From Sulfitobacter pontiacus (lineage in GTDB: Bacteria; Pseudomonadota; Alphaproteobacteria; Rhodobacterales; Rhodobacteraceae): DNA of 64,000 nt. The first letter of the stretch is position 1. Each line of letters begins with the position of its first letter. The translations under genes were made by a program, and so were the position numbers. This document shows positions 25,486-43,321 of this stretch, piece after piece. The DNA lies in the NCBI RefSeq assembly GCF_040790665.1, contig NZ_CP160849.1:1637501-1701500 (forward strand). Direction: 5' to 3'. The notes under the pieces were generated by a model. It was given only the letters and a program-made list of their open reading frames with translations, ran no database searches and was not told the origin of the DNA.

Positions 25486-26523
25486 TTACTTGGGAATCAG
25501 TGCCCAGTAATCGAGGTCGAGCAGGACATCGGGCAGGTATTTACCGTCTTCACCCTTCAGCTTGAACGGCTCTCCGCCTTTGGTGGCGACCAAGCGCAAG
25601 CGCAATGCGCCGACGCCGGGTTTGTCGGTATCGGCTTTGTCCAGAACCTCGGTCCAGGCGCGGATTGTGTCGCCGGATAGGCAGGGGTTCGCATGGGCCC
25701 CGCCGTTTAGCCCCACGATCATCTGCGCATTGGCCAGCCCGTTGAAAGATAGCGCCCGCGCCATAGAGATCACATGCCCGCCATAGATCAGCCGCGACCC
25801 GTCGGGGCGGGCAGAGGTGTCAAAGTGCACTTTTGCCGTGTTCTGCCACAGGCGGGTGGCCATCATATGCTCCGCCTCTTCGACGGTGACGCCATCCACG
25901 TGGTCGATCATCTCGCCCACGGAATAATCGCCCCAACGATGCGCCTCGCCCGCGAGGGTAAAGTCATAATTGCTGAAATCGAGCGTTTCGGGGATCGTCA
26001 GATCGTCAACCGTCAGCGCCTTGGGTAGATCGGGCACGACCGTTTCGGGGGCGGGGGCATCGACATCACGTTTGCGCACCATCACCCAGCGGACATACTC
26101 CAGCACTTTGGTGTCGTTCTGGTTAAAGCCAGTGGTGCGCACATAGACGACGCCGGTTTTCCCGTTCGAGTTTTGCTTGAGCCCGATCACCTCGGATTCA
26201 GACCGCAGCGTATCGCCGGGCCAGACCGGTGCCAGCCAGCGTCCCTGCGCGTAGCCAAGGTTGGCCACGGCGTTCAGCGATACATCCGGCACGGTTTTGC
26301 CGAACACGATGTGAAAGGTAATCATATCGTCCAGCGGGCTGGCAGGCAGGCCGCAGCTTTGCGCGAACTGGTCAGAGGAATAAAGCGCATGACGCGCAGG
26401 ATATAGTGCGTGGTATAATGCCCGCTCGCCATCCTTGACGGTGCGCGGGACCGCGTGGTGCAGTGTCTCGCCGACTTTATAGTCTTCGAAGAAGCGCCCT
26501 TTGTTGGTCTTTGCCTGTGCCAT
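25486..26523 (-). CDS. mch: Mesaconyl-CoA (2-methylfumaryl-CoA) hydratase, MaoC family
   Basis: Ethylmalonyl-CoA pathway enzyme that hydrates mesaconyl-CoA to beta-methylmalyl-CoA. It is 345 residues and has two MaoC-like halves: KGRFFEDYKVGETLHHAVPRT early, and the hydratase-type segment IYGGHVISMARALSFNG near residue 270. The start at 26523 matches the family N-terminus; the frame is open to 26649. It overlaps the DUF1737 stop by one base (TGATG). The neighbours DUF1737, NnrU and mcl2, and ecm/ccr elsewhere in the window, support this role over a generic MaoC function. Confidence 0.85.
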   Translation of the reverse strand: MAQAKTNKGRFFEDYKVGETLHHAVPRTVKDGERALYHALYPARHALYSSDQFAQSCGLPASPLDDMITFHIVFGKTVPDVSLNAVANLGYAQGRWLAPVWPGDTLRSESEVIGLKQNSNGKTGVVYVRTTGFNQNDTKVLEYVRWVMVRKRDVDAPAPETVVPDLPKALTVDDLTIPETLDFSNYDFTLAGEAHRWGDYSVGEMIDHVDGVTVEEAEHMMATRLWQNTAKVHFDTSARPDGSRLIYGGHVISMARALSFNGLANAQMIVGLNGGAHANPCLSGDTIRAWTEVLDKADTDKPGVGALRLRLVATKGGEPFKLKGEDGKYLPDVLLDLDYWALIPK

Positions 26524-26726
26524 CAATGCGCCCCTAGTTTGGTATCCGGCGTGTAGGTGCCTTCGACTTCCTTGGTGACGGCCTGACCGCAACGCATAAC
26601 ATTCGCCGCCGCGTCCCAAGTCTGTGTGGGGGTGCCATATAGTTCCCAACCCTTATTCAGCGCGTCGGTGACTTTGTGACAAAAGGCGGAAGTGTCCTCT
26701 TCGGACAGGAAACGATAGAGTTTCAT
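26523..26726 (-). CDS. DUF1737 protein
   Basis: A 67-residue protein, MKLYRFLSEEDTSAFCHKVTDALNKGWELYGTP at its start, with the pattern LYR…D…FC..V…L..GW.LYG.P that marks DUF1737. Function unknown. It is coupled to mch (TGATG) and follows the NnrU gene by 18 bp, within the mcl2-NnrU-DUF1737-mch cluster. Confidence 0.8.
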   Translation of the reverse strand: MKLYRFLSEEDTSAFCHKVTDALNKGWELYGTPTQTWDAAANVMRCGQAVTKEVEGTYTPDTKLGAH

Positions 26727-27307: not shown

Positions 27308-28165
27308 TTACTCCGTTTGCAGGGCCGCGATCGCGTCCAGCTTTGCCAATGTTTCGCGTGCGGTGGCGACATGCAGGTTTTCAACGATGCGCCCGTCCAC
27401 AACGGCCACACCCTGACCTGTCGCCTGCATTTCGTCAAACGCCTCGATCTGGCGGCGCGCCAGATCGGCTTCGGCCTCGGAGGGGGAGAATGCCTCGTTC
27501 GCGACGTCCAGCTGCGCGGGGTGGATCAAGGTTTTGCCGTCAAAGCCCATGTCGCGGCCTTGGTCACATTCAACGCGGTGGCCTTCGTCATCCTTGAACG
27601 CATTGTAAACGCCATCGACAATCGCGATGCCGTTGGCCTTGGCTGCAAGTACGCATAGGCCAAGCCCGGTCATCAGAGGCAGGCGGTCGGCGCGCACGCG
27701 GGTTTGCAGGTCTTTATTCAGGTCGTTGGTGCCCATCACCATACATTGCAGCTTGGGATGCGCGCCAATCGCGGCGGCATTCAGCATCGCACCCGGCGTT
27801 TCCATCATCGCCCAAAGCGGGATGTCGCCGGTGATTTCGGCCAGTGCATCCAGATCGGCGGGGCTGCCGACTTTGGGCAGCAAAATGGCGTCGCAGTCCA
27901 TCTTCGCCGCGGCGCGGGCATCGTCGGCACCCCATTCGGTGTCCAGCCCGTTGATGCGGATCACCTTATACCGGCTGCCGTAGCCGCCGTCTGTCAGCGC
28001 CGTGGCGAGTGTTTCACGTGCAGCGGTTTTCTCTTCCGGGATCACAGCGTCTTCGAGGTCAAAGATAATCGCATCGGCCGGCAGCCCGCGGGCTTTGTCT
28101 AACGCGCGGGCCTTGGAGCCGGGGATATACAGAACGGAACGCAGGGGGCGGGTGATTTTCGACAT
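27308..28165 (-). CDS. mcl2: (3S)-malyl-CoA thioesterase, CitE/HpcH family
   Basis: A 285-residue CitE-like protein. It shows RSVLYIPGSKARALDKAR, the acidic metal site IIFDLEDAV, MVMGTNDLNKDL and KTLIHPAQLDVANEAF. In Rhodobacter, Mcl2 hydrolyses (3S)-malyl-CoA to malate and CoA in the ethylmalonyl-CoA pathway, while the longer Mcl1 (about 318 residues) is the lyase. The length, the N-terminus and the neighbouring mch point to Mcl2. The start at 28165 was chosen because the upstream extension has no family similarity. A beta-methylmalyl-CoA lyase role cannot be fully excluded. Confidence 0.78.
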   Translation of the reverse strand: MSKITRPLRSVLYIPGSKARALDKARGLPADAIIFDLEDAVIPEEKTAARETLATALTDGGYGSRYKVIRINGLDTEWGADDARAAAKMDCDAILLPKVGSPADLDALAEITGDIPLWAMMETPGAMLNAAAIGAHPKLQCMVMGTNDLNKDLQTRVRADRLPLMTGLGLCVLAAKANGIAIVDGVYNAFKDDEGHRVECDQGRDMGFDGKTLIHPAQLDVANEAFSPSEAEADLARRQIEAFDEMQATGQGVAVVDGRIVENLHVATARETLAKLDAIAALQTE

Positions 28166-28339
28166 TTGCGACTCTCCAAGAAATAATATTGCGTGCAGGT
28201 CTGCATTTTTAGACGAAAACTTCAAGCGCAAACGCGCCGCAGCGCAGCGTCAGATAATTTGCGGCTTTAACGCGGCCTTCAGGTTTTGCTGCCAGAAGGA
28301 AAGGCGTCTTGGTGCGTGTGTAAGTGTAAGAGGTGTAGA

Positions 28340-38357: not shown

Positions 38358-40325
38358 TTATTCGGCGGCCACAGTTTCGGGATCGGCGAGTGTGACGATG
38401 TCTGCCATAATTGTATTCAATTCAAAGTCTTTTGGCGTGTAAACACGAGCGACTCCCATAGCGCGCAATCTTTTGGCGTCTTCTTCTGGAATAATACCAC
38501 CCACGATTACGGGAATGTGGTCCAATCCGGCGGCGCGCATTTGTTTCATTAAATCCTCGACCAATGGAATATGCGATCCCGAAAGAATCGAAAGCCCGAC
38601 AACGTGATGTTCTCCTTCAGCGGCGGCGGAAACAATTTCCGACGGCGTCAGGCGAATACCCTCATAGGCAATTTCCATGCCGCAATCGCGGGCGCGCACG
38701 GCGATCTGCTCGGCCCCGTTCGAATGGCCGTCGAGCCCCGGTTTCCCGACAAGAAAACTCAACCGTCGACCCAGACGGGTGCTGACGGCATCCACGGCGT
38801 CGCGCAGGTCGTCCAGCCCCTCGGTCTTGTTTGACCGGCCCGAAGCAACGCCTGTTGGCCCACGGTATTCGCCGTGCACGCTGCGCATCTGTTCGGCCCA
38901 TTCGCCGGTGGTAACCCCCGCCTTGGCGGCGGCGATCGACGGCTCCATTACATTGCGCCCTTCGGCAGCGGCGGCGCGCAGATCGGCCAGCGCCTTGTCC
39001 ACGGCGGCCTGATCACGGCTGTCGCGCCATGCGTTAAGACGGTTGATCTGGTCGGCCTCGACCGCGGGGTCCACGACCATGATGCCGCCATCACCCGTCA
39101 TCAGCGGCGAGGGTTCGCCCTGTTGCCACTTGTTCACGCCCACGACGATGGTCTCGCCGGCCTCGATCCGACCCAGACGGTCGGCGTTGCTTTCGACCAG
39201 ACGCGACTTCATATAGTCAATCGCCGAAATCGCGCCGCCCATATCGTCAAGGTTCGCCAGTTCGGCCCGTGCGCCCTCTTTCAGCGCTTCGACCTTACGG
39301 TCCACGGCGGGGTTGCCATCGAACAGGTCGTCAAACTCCAGCAGGTCTGTCTCGTAGGCCATGATCTGCTGCATCCGCATCGACCATTGCTGGTCCCACG
39401 GGCGCGGCAGGCCAAGCGCTTCGTTCCACGCGGGCAGCTGCACGGCGCGGGCGCGGGCGTTCTTTGACAGGGTCACCGCAAGCATCTCGATCAGGATGCG
39501 GTAGACGTTATTCTCGGGCTGCTGTTCGGTCAGCCCAAGGGAGTTCACCTGCACCCCATAGCGGAAGCGGCGATACTTCGGGTCTTCAACGCCATAGCGG
39601 TCGCGGCAGATTTCGTCCCAAAGGTCGCCAAAGGCACGCATCTTGCACATCTCGGTGACAAAGCGGATGCCCGCGTTCACAAAGAAAGAGATCCGCCCCA
39701 CCAGCATGGGGAAGTCCTCTTCGGGGACGCGGGGACGCAAGGCGTCCAGTACGGCGGTGGCGGTGGCAAGGGCAAAGGCCAGCTCTTGCTCGGGCGTGGC
39801 ACCGGCCTCTTGCAGGTGGTAGGAACAGACGTTCATCGGGTTCCACTTGGGCACGTTGGTATAGCAATACTCGGCCACATCCGCGATCATCTTGAGCGAC
39901 GGGGCAGGCGGGCAGATATAGGTGCCACGCGACAGGTATTCCTTGATCAGGTCGTTCTGCACGGTGCCTTGGAGCTTGGACACATCCGCGCCCTGTTCCT
40001 CGGCCACAGCAATATACAGCGCCAGCAGCCACGGCGCGGTGGCGTTGATCGTCATCGAGGTGTTCATCTGCTCAAGCGGGATATCCTTGAACAGGCTGCG
40101 CATATCGCCCAAATGCGCCACGGGTACACCCACTTTGCCGACTTCGCCGCGCGACAGGATGTGATCACTGTCATATCCGGTCTGGGTGGGCAGGTCGAAG
40201 GCGACCGACAGGCCGGTCTGCCCTTTCAAAAGGTTCGCGCGATACAGCGCATTGGATGCCTCGGCGGTGGAGTGTCCGGCATAGGTGCGGATCAGCCAGG
40301 GGCGGTCTTTTTGCGGTTGCGACAT
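38358..40325 (-). CDS. ecm: Ethylmalonyl-CoA mutase (B12-dependent)
   Basis: Converts ethylmalonyl-CoA to methylsuccinyl-CoA in the ethylmalonyl-CoA pathway. It is 655 residues: the catalytic barrel at the N-terminus (RPWLIRTYAGHSTAEASN, LSVAFDLPTQTGYDSDH) and a C-terminal B12-binding domain with LDGHSNGAEQ (DxHxxG), IVSAAAEGEHHVVGLSILSG and VIVGGIIPEED. The RTYAGHSTA opening distinguishes MeaA/Ecm from methylmalonyl-CoA mutase. The start at 40325 is the family start; the frame is open beyond it. ccr lies 1.7 kb away in divergent orientation. Confidence 0.94.
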   Translation of the reverse strand: MSQPQKDRPWLIRTYAGHSTAEASNALYRANLLKGQTGLSVAFDLPTQTGYDSDHILSRGEVGKVGVPVAHLGDMRSLFKDIPLEQMNTSMTINATAPWLLALYIAVAEEQGADVSKLQGTVQNDLIKEYLSRGTYICPPAPSLKMIADVAEYCYTNVPKWNPMNVCSYHLQEAGATPEQELAFALATATAVLDALRPRVPEEDFPMLVGRISFFVNAGIRFVTEMCKMRAFGDLWDEICRDRYGVEDPKYRRFRYGVQVNSLGLTEQQPENNVYRILIEMLAVTLSKNARARAVQLPAWNEALGLPRPWDQQWSMRMQQIMAYETDLLEFDDLFDGNPAVDRKVEALKEGARAELANLDDMGGAISAIDYMKSRLVESNADRLGRIEAGETIVVGVNKWQQGEPSPLMTGDGGIMVVDPAVEADQINRLNAWRDSRDQAAVDKALADLRAAAAEGRNVMEPSIAAAKAGVTTGEWAEQMRSVHGEYRGPTGVASGRSNKTEGLDDLRDAVDAVSTRLGRRLSFLVGKPGLDGHSNGAEQIAVRARDCGMEIAYEGIRLTPSEIVSAAAEGEHHVVGLSILSGSHIPLVEDLMKQMRAAGLDHIPVIVGGIIPEEDAKRLRAMGVARVYTPKDFELNTIMADIVTLADPETVAAE

Positions 40326-42041: not shown

Positions 42042-43321
42042 ATGGCCTTGGACACGAATATCGCGCAATACGACGCACCGGAAAAAGACCTTTACGAGAT
42101 CGGGGAAATCCCGCCTATGGGCTACGTTCCAAAGCAGATGTACGCATGGACCATCCGCAAGGAACGCCACGGAAACCCAATACCGCGATGCTCGAAGAGG
42201 TCGTGGACGTGCCGACGCTCGACAGTCACGAGGTGCTTGTCCTCGTGATGGCTGCGGGTGTGAACTATAACGGTGTCTGGGCTGCCTTGGGCAAACCCAT
42301 CAGCCCCTTCGACGGCCACAAGCAGCCCTTCCACATTGCGGGCTCTGACGCGTCGGGCATCGTCTGGGCGGTTGGCGACAAGGTAAAACGCTGGAAGGTC
42401 GGCGACGAAGTCGTGATCCACTGCAACCAGGATGACGGCGACGACGAAGAGTGCAACGGCGGCGATCCGATGTATTCTCCCAGCCAGCGTATCTGGGGCT
42501 ACGAGACCCCCGACGGATCCTTTGCCCAGTTTACCAATGTGCAGGCGCAGCAGCTGATGCCTCGCCCCAAGCACCTGACATGGGAAGAGGCCGCTTGCTA
42601 CACGCTGACGCTGGCCACTGCCTACCGGATGCTGTTCGGCCACGAGCCTCATGACCTGAAACCGGGCCAGAACGTGCTGGTCTGGGGCGCCTCGGGCGGT
42701 CTGGGGTCCTACGCGATCCAGCTGATCAACACTGCTGGCGCGAATGCGATTGGTGTGATCTCGGATGAATCCAAGCGGGACTTTGTCATGGATCTGGGCG
42801 CCAAGGGCGTTCTGAACCGCAAGGACTTCAACTGCTGGGGCCAGATGCCCACCGTGAACACGCCCGAATATGCGGCTTGGTTCAAAGAGGCGCGCAAGTT
42901 CGGTGCCGCGATCTGGGAGATCACAGGCAAGGGCGTGAACGTCGACATGGTGTTTGAACATCCCGGCGAGGCGACGTTCCCAGTGTCCACCTTCGTCTGC
43001 AAAAAGGGCGGCATGGTCGTGATCTGCGCGGGGACTTCGGGTTTCAACCTGACTTTCGACGTGCGCTATATGTGGATGCACCAGAAGCGTTTGCAGGGCA
43101 GCCACTTTGCCCACCTCAAGCAGGCGTCGGCCGCCAACAAACTTATGGTAGAGCGCCGTCTTGATCCGTGCATGTCCGAAGTGTTCACCTGGGCCGATCT
43201 GCCCGACGCGCACATGAAGATGATGGCGAACGAGCATAAGCCGGGCAACATGTCGGTACTGGTGCAATCGCCCAAGACCGGCCTGCGCACGCTCGAAGAC
43301 GCGCTGGACGCGAAAAAATAA
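42042..43321 (+). pseudogene. ccr: Crotonyl-CoA carboxylase/reductase, split by a one-base frameshift
   Basis: Key carboxylating enzyme of the ethylmalonyl-CoA pathway (crotonyl-CoA + CO2 + NADPH to ethylmalonyl-CoA). The N-terminus (MALDTNIAQYDAPEKDLYEIGE … YAWTIRKERHGNP) is read in one frame from 42042, with GGAG upstream. From about 42180 the family sequence continues in another frame (NTAMLEEVVDVPTLDSHEVLV … VWGASGGLGSYAIQ … DALDAKK) to 43321. Restoring one A in the CCCAATACC stretch at 42176-42184 gives an uninterrupted protein of about 426 residues, the normal size. It may be a sequencing error or a true mutation. The rest is intact. Confidence 0.9.

Follow-up and report, generated by a model that had tools for sequence, protein, structure and literature searches.

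Is the gene for crotonyl-CoA carboxylase/reductase (ccr) broken in the living cell, or only in the sequence that has been written down for it? The question is raised by a 64,000-nucleotide stretch of Sulfitobacter pontiacus DNA, hereafter the window, in which an earlier note had placed a one-base split of ccr near 42176-42184. We confirm that the feature is a true property of the written sequence and lies at that place. Translation in frame 0 from the ATG at 42042 gives 46 native residues, MALDTNIAQ...RKERHGNP, followed by 22 foreign residues and a stop. The frame is lost at about 42176-42179, and the remaining 380 residues, corresponding to family positions 47-426, continue in the -1 frame to a stop that ends at 43321 (Table 1). 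In alignment, the junction reads GGAAACCCAATACC in the window versus GGGAACCCCAATACC in the sister genome G039, whose 426-codon gene is intact; the window has one C fewer in a run of four, plus an adjoining synonymous GGG/GGA difference. The earlier note had restored the frame with an extra A. Such a repair would also encode Pro-Asn, and the distant relative G027 indeed uses CCA AAT, but an additional C fits G039 more closely. Apart from this one, the gene shows no change of frame.

The C-terminal piece on its own scores 591.9 bits in a profile search with TIGR01751, against a cut-off of 378.55, and the G039 protein matches the window's genome over residues 45-426 of 426 at 99% identity. The locus therefore belongs to the crotonyl-CoA carboxylase/reductase family (TIGR01751; solved relative 4gi2) by the family's own cut-off, and differs from it in that the frame changes after codon 46, in place of a single uninterrupted frame of about 426 codons. 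On the minus strand, a 381-codon open reading frame (ORF) lies antisense to ccr (window 42122-43267; 486 codons in G039), and probably arises from the G+C-richness of the coding strand's sequence.

Table 1. Features at the ccr break, in the surrounding pathway genes and at the other frameshifted genes of the same genome (window positions unless prefixed G000:C1)
Feature	Position	Strand	Basis or remark
ccr 5' piece, frame 0: 46 native and 22 foreign codons, TGA at 42246-42248	42042..42248	+	sequence, translation
Three-C run (four in G039), frame switch	42176..42178	+	alignment
ccr 3' piece, -1 frame, family residues 47-426; 391 codons as ORF from ATG 42146	42180..43321	+	ORF list, TIGR01751, protein match
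AAGGA, Shine-Dalgarno-like, 9 nt before heptamer; coding, common to unshifted sister	42159..42163	+	sequence, alignment
A_AAC_CCA, heptamer of the X_XXY_YYZ shape, phased for a -1 shift; regarded as coincidental	42173..42179	+	sequence; E. coli data (PMC4066793); chance rate
Predicted 10-bp hairpin, 3 nt after heptamer; same sequence in unshifted sister	42183..42206	+	fold, alignment
TGATG, frame-0 stop overlapping -1-frame ATG (Met70); possible reinitiation, 357 residues (70-426)	42246..42250	+	sequence
Intact acyl-CoA mutase gene adjoining ccr, probably ecm; longest ORF reaches 40706	38361..40301	-	Pfam MM_CoA_mutase 415.5 bits, B12-binding 62.0 bits; TIGR00641 over cut-off
Intact mesaconyl-CoA hydratase-like ORF (mch)	25489..26649	-	Pfam MC_hydratase 57.8 bits, cut-off 26.5
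Intact malyl-CoA lyase/thioesterase-type ORF (mcl1 or mcl2)	27311..28231	-	Pfam HpcH_HpaI 135.7 bits, cut-off 25
Aminotransferase-like gene, one base more	G000:C1 near 1084596 (L166)		outside window; name by eye
Sodium/alanine symporter-like gene, one base fewer	G000:C1 near 2079577 (L215)		outside window; name by eye
GNAT-like gene, 4-base tandem duplication	G000:C1 near 1460049 (L125)		outside window; name by eye

In the genus, ccr is almost always whole. With the 426-residue protein of G039 as query, the gene was found in 61 of 62 genomes, the window's included, and in 58 of the 60 relatives with a match it occupies one frame throughout; G053, an assembly 64% complete, gave no match to this protein. 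The closest relative is G039, which is 97% identical at the DNA level across the 1,501 bases searched. The open frame of the relatives is thus interrupted in the window, as it would be in a pseudogene. The two exceptions among the relatives look like assembly cases. In G034 the gene is split over two contigs. In G002 it is in two pieces, its DNA showing two one-base gaps within the gene (L261, G002:C1 480401-482000), and the succinate dehydrogenase gene sdhA, whole in the window's genome, is split as well; because of these defects G002 seems to be an error-rich assembly despite its few contigs. The break in the window resembles the single-base frameshifts of G002, since in both a conserved gene has a gap of one base at or next to a homopolymer, yet such frameshifts are far rarer in the window's assembly. 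A family-wide search returned a ccr match in at least 367 of 394 genomes, ten of them with two matches, and among the matches listed only that of the window's genome starts beyond residue 13. Separately, part of the genome's plasmid has counterparts in seven plasmid records at 98.0-98.4% (five of Sulfitobacter pontiacus and two of Sulfitobacter sp.), and is absent from G039.

The conserved N-terminus bears on whether a shortened, working CCR might be made from the 3' piece, either from an internal start (ATG 42146 or 42188) or by stop and restart at TGATG. The 391-residue ORF that opens at ATG 42146 retains both Pfam domains, each at full score, and TGATG is shaped like a coupled stop and start. 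However, judged by eye, no Shine-Dalgarno-like word stands ahead of the two ATGs or of TGATG, and a product beginning at Met70 would cut into the ADH_N domain (62-176 of 426). The same N-terminus is present in the 58 relatives with a whole gene, and 4gi2 aligns from query residue 12 on. We regard an active enzyme of this shortened kind as very improbable.

For how long could the gene have been broken? Differences between the window and G039 were polarised with G031 and G012 as outgroups. The window's branch has 14 derived changes, every one of them synonymous and 12 lying beyond the break, and 13 of 14 on the sister's branch are synonymous too; five further differences, one of them at a first codon position, are without polarisation. 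Had selection been absent along the whole window branch, 32-41 non-synonymous changes would be expected, and none is observed. A 95% bound confines any loss of ccr to roughly the final 9-11% of the branch. Likewise, none of the 12 polarised changes past the break is non-synonymous, so that relaxed selection is not seen in that part of the gene. These results, together with the single frame change, bear out the description of the rest of ccr as free of decay. Gradual decay of the gene was considered and rejected, since every polarised change is synonymous and any loss falls within the last ~9-11% of the branch. Given that 32-41 non-synonymous changes were expected and none found, the break would have to be very fresh, or outside the cell, or compensated.

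Compensation could in principle be provided by the ribosome. Bacterial programmed -1 frameshift cassettes, of the dnaX type or the IS type, consist of a Shine-Dalgarno-like word, an X_XXY_YYZ heptamer and a hairpin. The same elements follow one another in the same order at the ccr break (Table 1), and if the deletion were real and ribosomes slipped by -1 at A_AAC_CCA, translation would yield exactly the 426-residue family protein, whether the shift were compensating or programmed. This reading was taken seriously because the heptamer, its phase and direction, the word upstream and the hairpin downstream all fit. The fold of 42182-42270 is predicted at -37.1 kcal/mol (z -2.32), and 6 of 200 shuffles are as good. 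In its favour are also the purifying selection that continues past the break, and the fact that frameshifting is known to compensate indels, according to the available part of one report (PMC5009743). On the other hand, the portion available to us of a survey of slippage heptamers in E. coli lists A_AA.C_CC.A among the 3 of 64 that fall below the frameshift-prone threshold even with the IS3 pseudoknot, although the present host may differ (PMC4066793). Chance readily supplies the parts: when deletions were simulated in runs of at least four, 459 of 10,960 created such a heptamer, and a Shine-Dalgarno-like word lies upstream at 26,063 of 294,270 codon positions. In contrast to true cassettes, both flanking elements are identical in the unshifted sister, and the shift is conserved in no relative, 58 of 60 having one frame throughout. 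Moreover, slippage at the usual low rates would leave little enzyme. Programmed frameshifting was rejected on the heptamer's behaviour in E. coli as reported in that portion of the survey, on the chance rates and on the flanks shared with the unshifted sister, and rescue of the enzyme by slippage in any form is, of all the readings considered, the one to which we give least credence. It is also the boldest: if true, with the deletion real and fixed, a free-living bacterium would owe an enzyme of its central carbon metabolism to ribosomal frameshifting, and this at a motif on which E. coli ribosomes do not slip.

A question remains, does the missing C reflect the assembly or the cell? To judge the assembly, 1.2 Mb of the window's chromosome was aligned to 1.2 Mb of that of G039, giving 1.03 Mb aligned at 96.0% identity, and the survey was confined to ORFs with substitutions mostly at third codon positions (847 ORFs, 917 kb, with G039 as reference). 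Fourteen ORFs were flagged with the sister as reference and 16 with the window as reference. The sequence context was inspected for seven and four of these, respectively, and two were read separately, one of which is also among those inspected; the remaining flagged ORFs switch frame within the first 34-147 or last 52 bases of the longest possible ORF and were attributed to the choice of start codon or to the ends of alignments, so that true early frameshifts there would be missed. Outgroup polarisation was applied to ccr alone, and the other frameshifts were assigned to the side with the shorter ORF; one gene with a 10-base difference inside a diverged region (G000:C1 1031884-1032525) was left out of this assignment. 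On the window's side, mid-gene frameshifts affect four genes in the 917 kb of coding-like sequence, namely ccr and the three others of Table 1, and three of the four are of one base. On the side of G039 there are two one-base frameshifts about 2 kb apart (L181, G039:C1 near 264864 and 266864). One of these falls in a gene resembling holA, which encodes the DNA polymerase III delta subunit, and is probably an assembly error because such a gene would be essential. The 4-base duplication in the GNAT-like gene, in contrast, has the look of a genuine mutation, which makes it probable that the window's genome does acquire fresh nulls. Three one-base frameshifts in 0.92 Mb are what one would see if the assembly were good with an occasional error, and equally if a few null mutations had arisen recently. 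Each of them (G000:C1 1679676, that is, window 42176, as well as 1084596 and 2079577) lies within about four bases of a mismatch to the sister that is synonymous and at a third codon position. This clustering seems closer than one would expect.

We lean towards a consensus error of the assembly at the CCCC run, with a probability of roughly 0.55. The written sequence would then lack one C of this run, at codons 45-46 of an ordinary conserved ccr, and the living cell would have an intact CCR and an intact ethylmalonyl-CoA pathway. The lean towards error comes from two lines of evidence: ccr appears to have been under full selection up to the present, all 14 polarised changes being synonymous and older loss excluded, and the other two interrupted copies found in the genus, the only exceptions to 58 whole genes, look like assembly cases. 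Also in favour of an error are the nature of the difference, one base in a homopolymer, and the strong selection for keeping ccr that is expected where neither a second ccr nor an isocitrate lyase scores over cut-off. Against an error stand the quality of the assembly, which is 99.96% complete, has an intact sdhA and shows only three one-base mid-gene frameshifts per 917 kb, the length of the run, four Cs being short for a typical homopolymer error, and the nature of the affected genes, since all four look by eye to be dispensable in rich medium, as true nulls would be.

These same observations speak for a deletion that is real and very recent, having arisen in the isolate or in culture. Translation would then stop after 68 residues, no full-length enzyme would be made, and the ethylmalonyl-CoA pathway would be unusable while its other genes stayed intact. 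The few frameshifts of a good assembly and the true-looking duplication in the GNAT-like gene are consistent with such an event. In accordance, deletion of ccr in Rhodobacter capsulatus impaired growth on acetate and not on malate, according to the part of the study available (PMC10370305), so that a loss in rich medium could go unpunished. The intact gene of 58 of 60 relatives, the lack of non-synonymous changes among the 14 on the window's branch and the undecayed state of the window's other pathway genes argue against it. A fresh null mutation is possible, at somewhat less than even odds; a consensus error is favoured over it, and the data do not decide firmly between the two. The available portions of the literature on the strain's growth on acetate or its sequencing, including PMC13386836 and PMC11278168, held nothing that settles error against mutation. 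The alternative posed in the earlier note, a real break or an assembly or read error, thus matches the present evidence as framed. Its corollary, that the pathway is broken, stays conditional, as ccr bears no sign of having evolved without a functional enzyme.

What would be lost with ccr depends on the other routes for acetate. The earlier note had named ecm, mch and mcl2 as intact, and genes of the ecm, mch and mcl types are indeed intact ORFs with the expected domains (Table 1), although the models used do not distinguish ecm from methylmalonyl-CoA mutase or mcl2 from mcl1. It had also called for a search of the genome for a second ccr. None scores over the family cut-off, and the next match reaches 99.6 bits. 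Isocitrate lyase over cut-off was found in none of the 62 genus genomes, with weak partial matches in 34; in a control with 14 known genomes, 5 passed the cut-off. The absence of matches over cut-off agrees with a survey in which, in its available part, the glyoxylate pathway is said to be confined to one Roseobacter cluster and a few Paracoccus (PMC12661815). Given that neither isocitrate lyase nor a second ccr is found over cut-off, strong selection to keep ccr is expected, and with a real break the one recognised route of net acetate assimilation would be shut. If the deletion is real, the strain would be a natural ccr knockout among 60 gene-bearing relatives of its genus, 58 of which keep the gene whole, and this marine bacterium, having no CCR and no isocitrate lyase over cut-off, would be left with no recognised means of net acetate assimilation. 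If, as we favour, the consensus is in error, automatic pathway calls made from this genome would wrongly score the ethylmalonyl-CoA pathway as broken.
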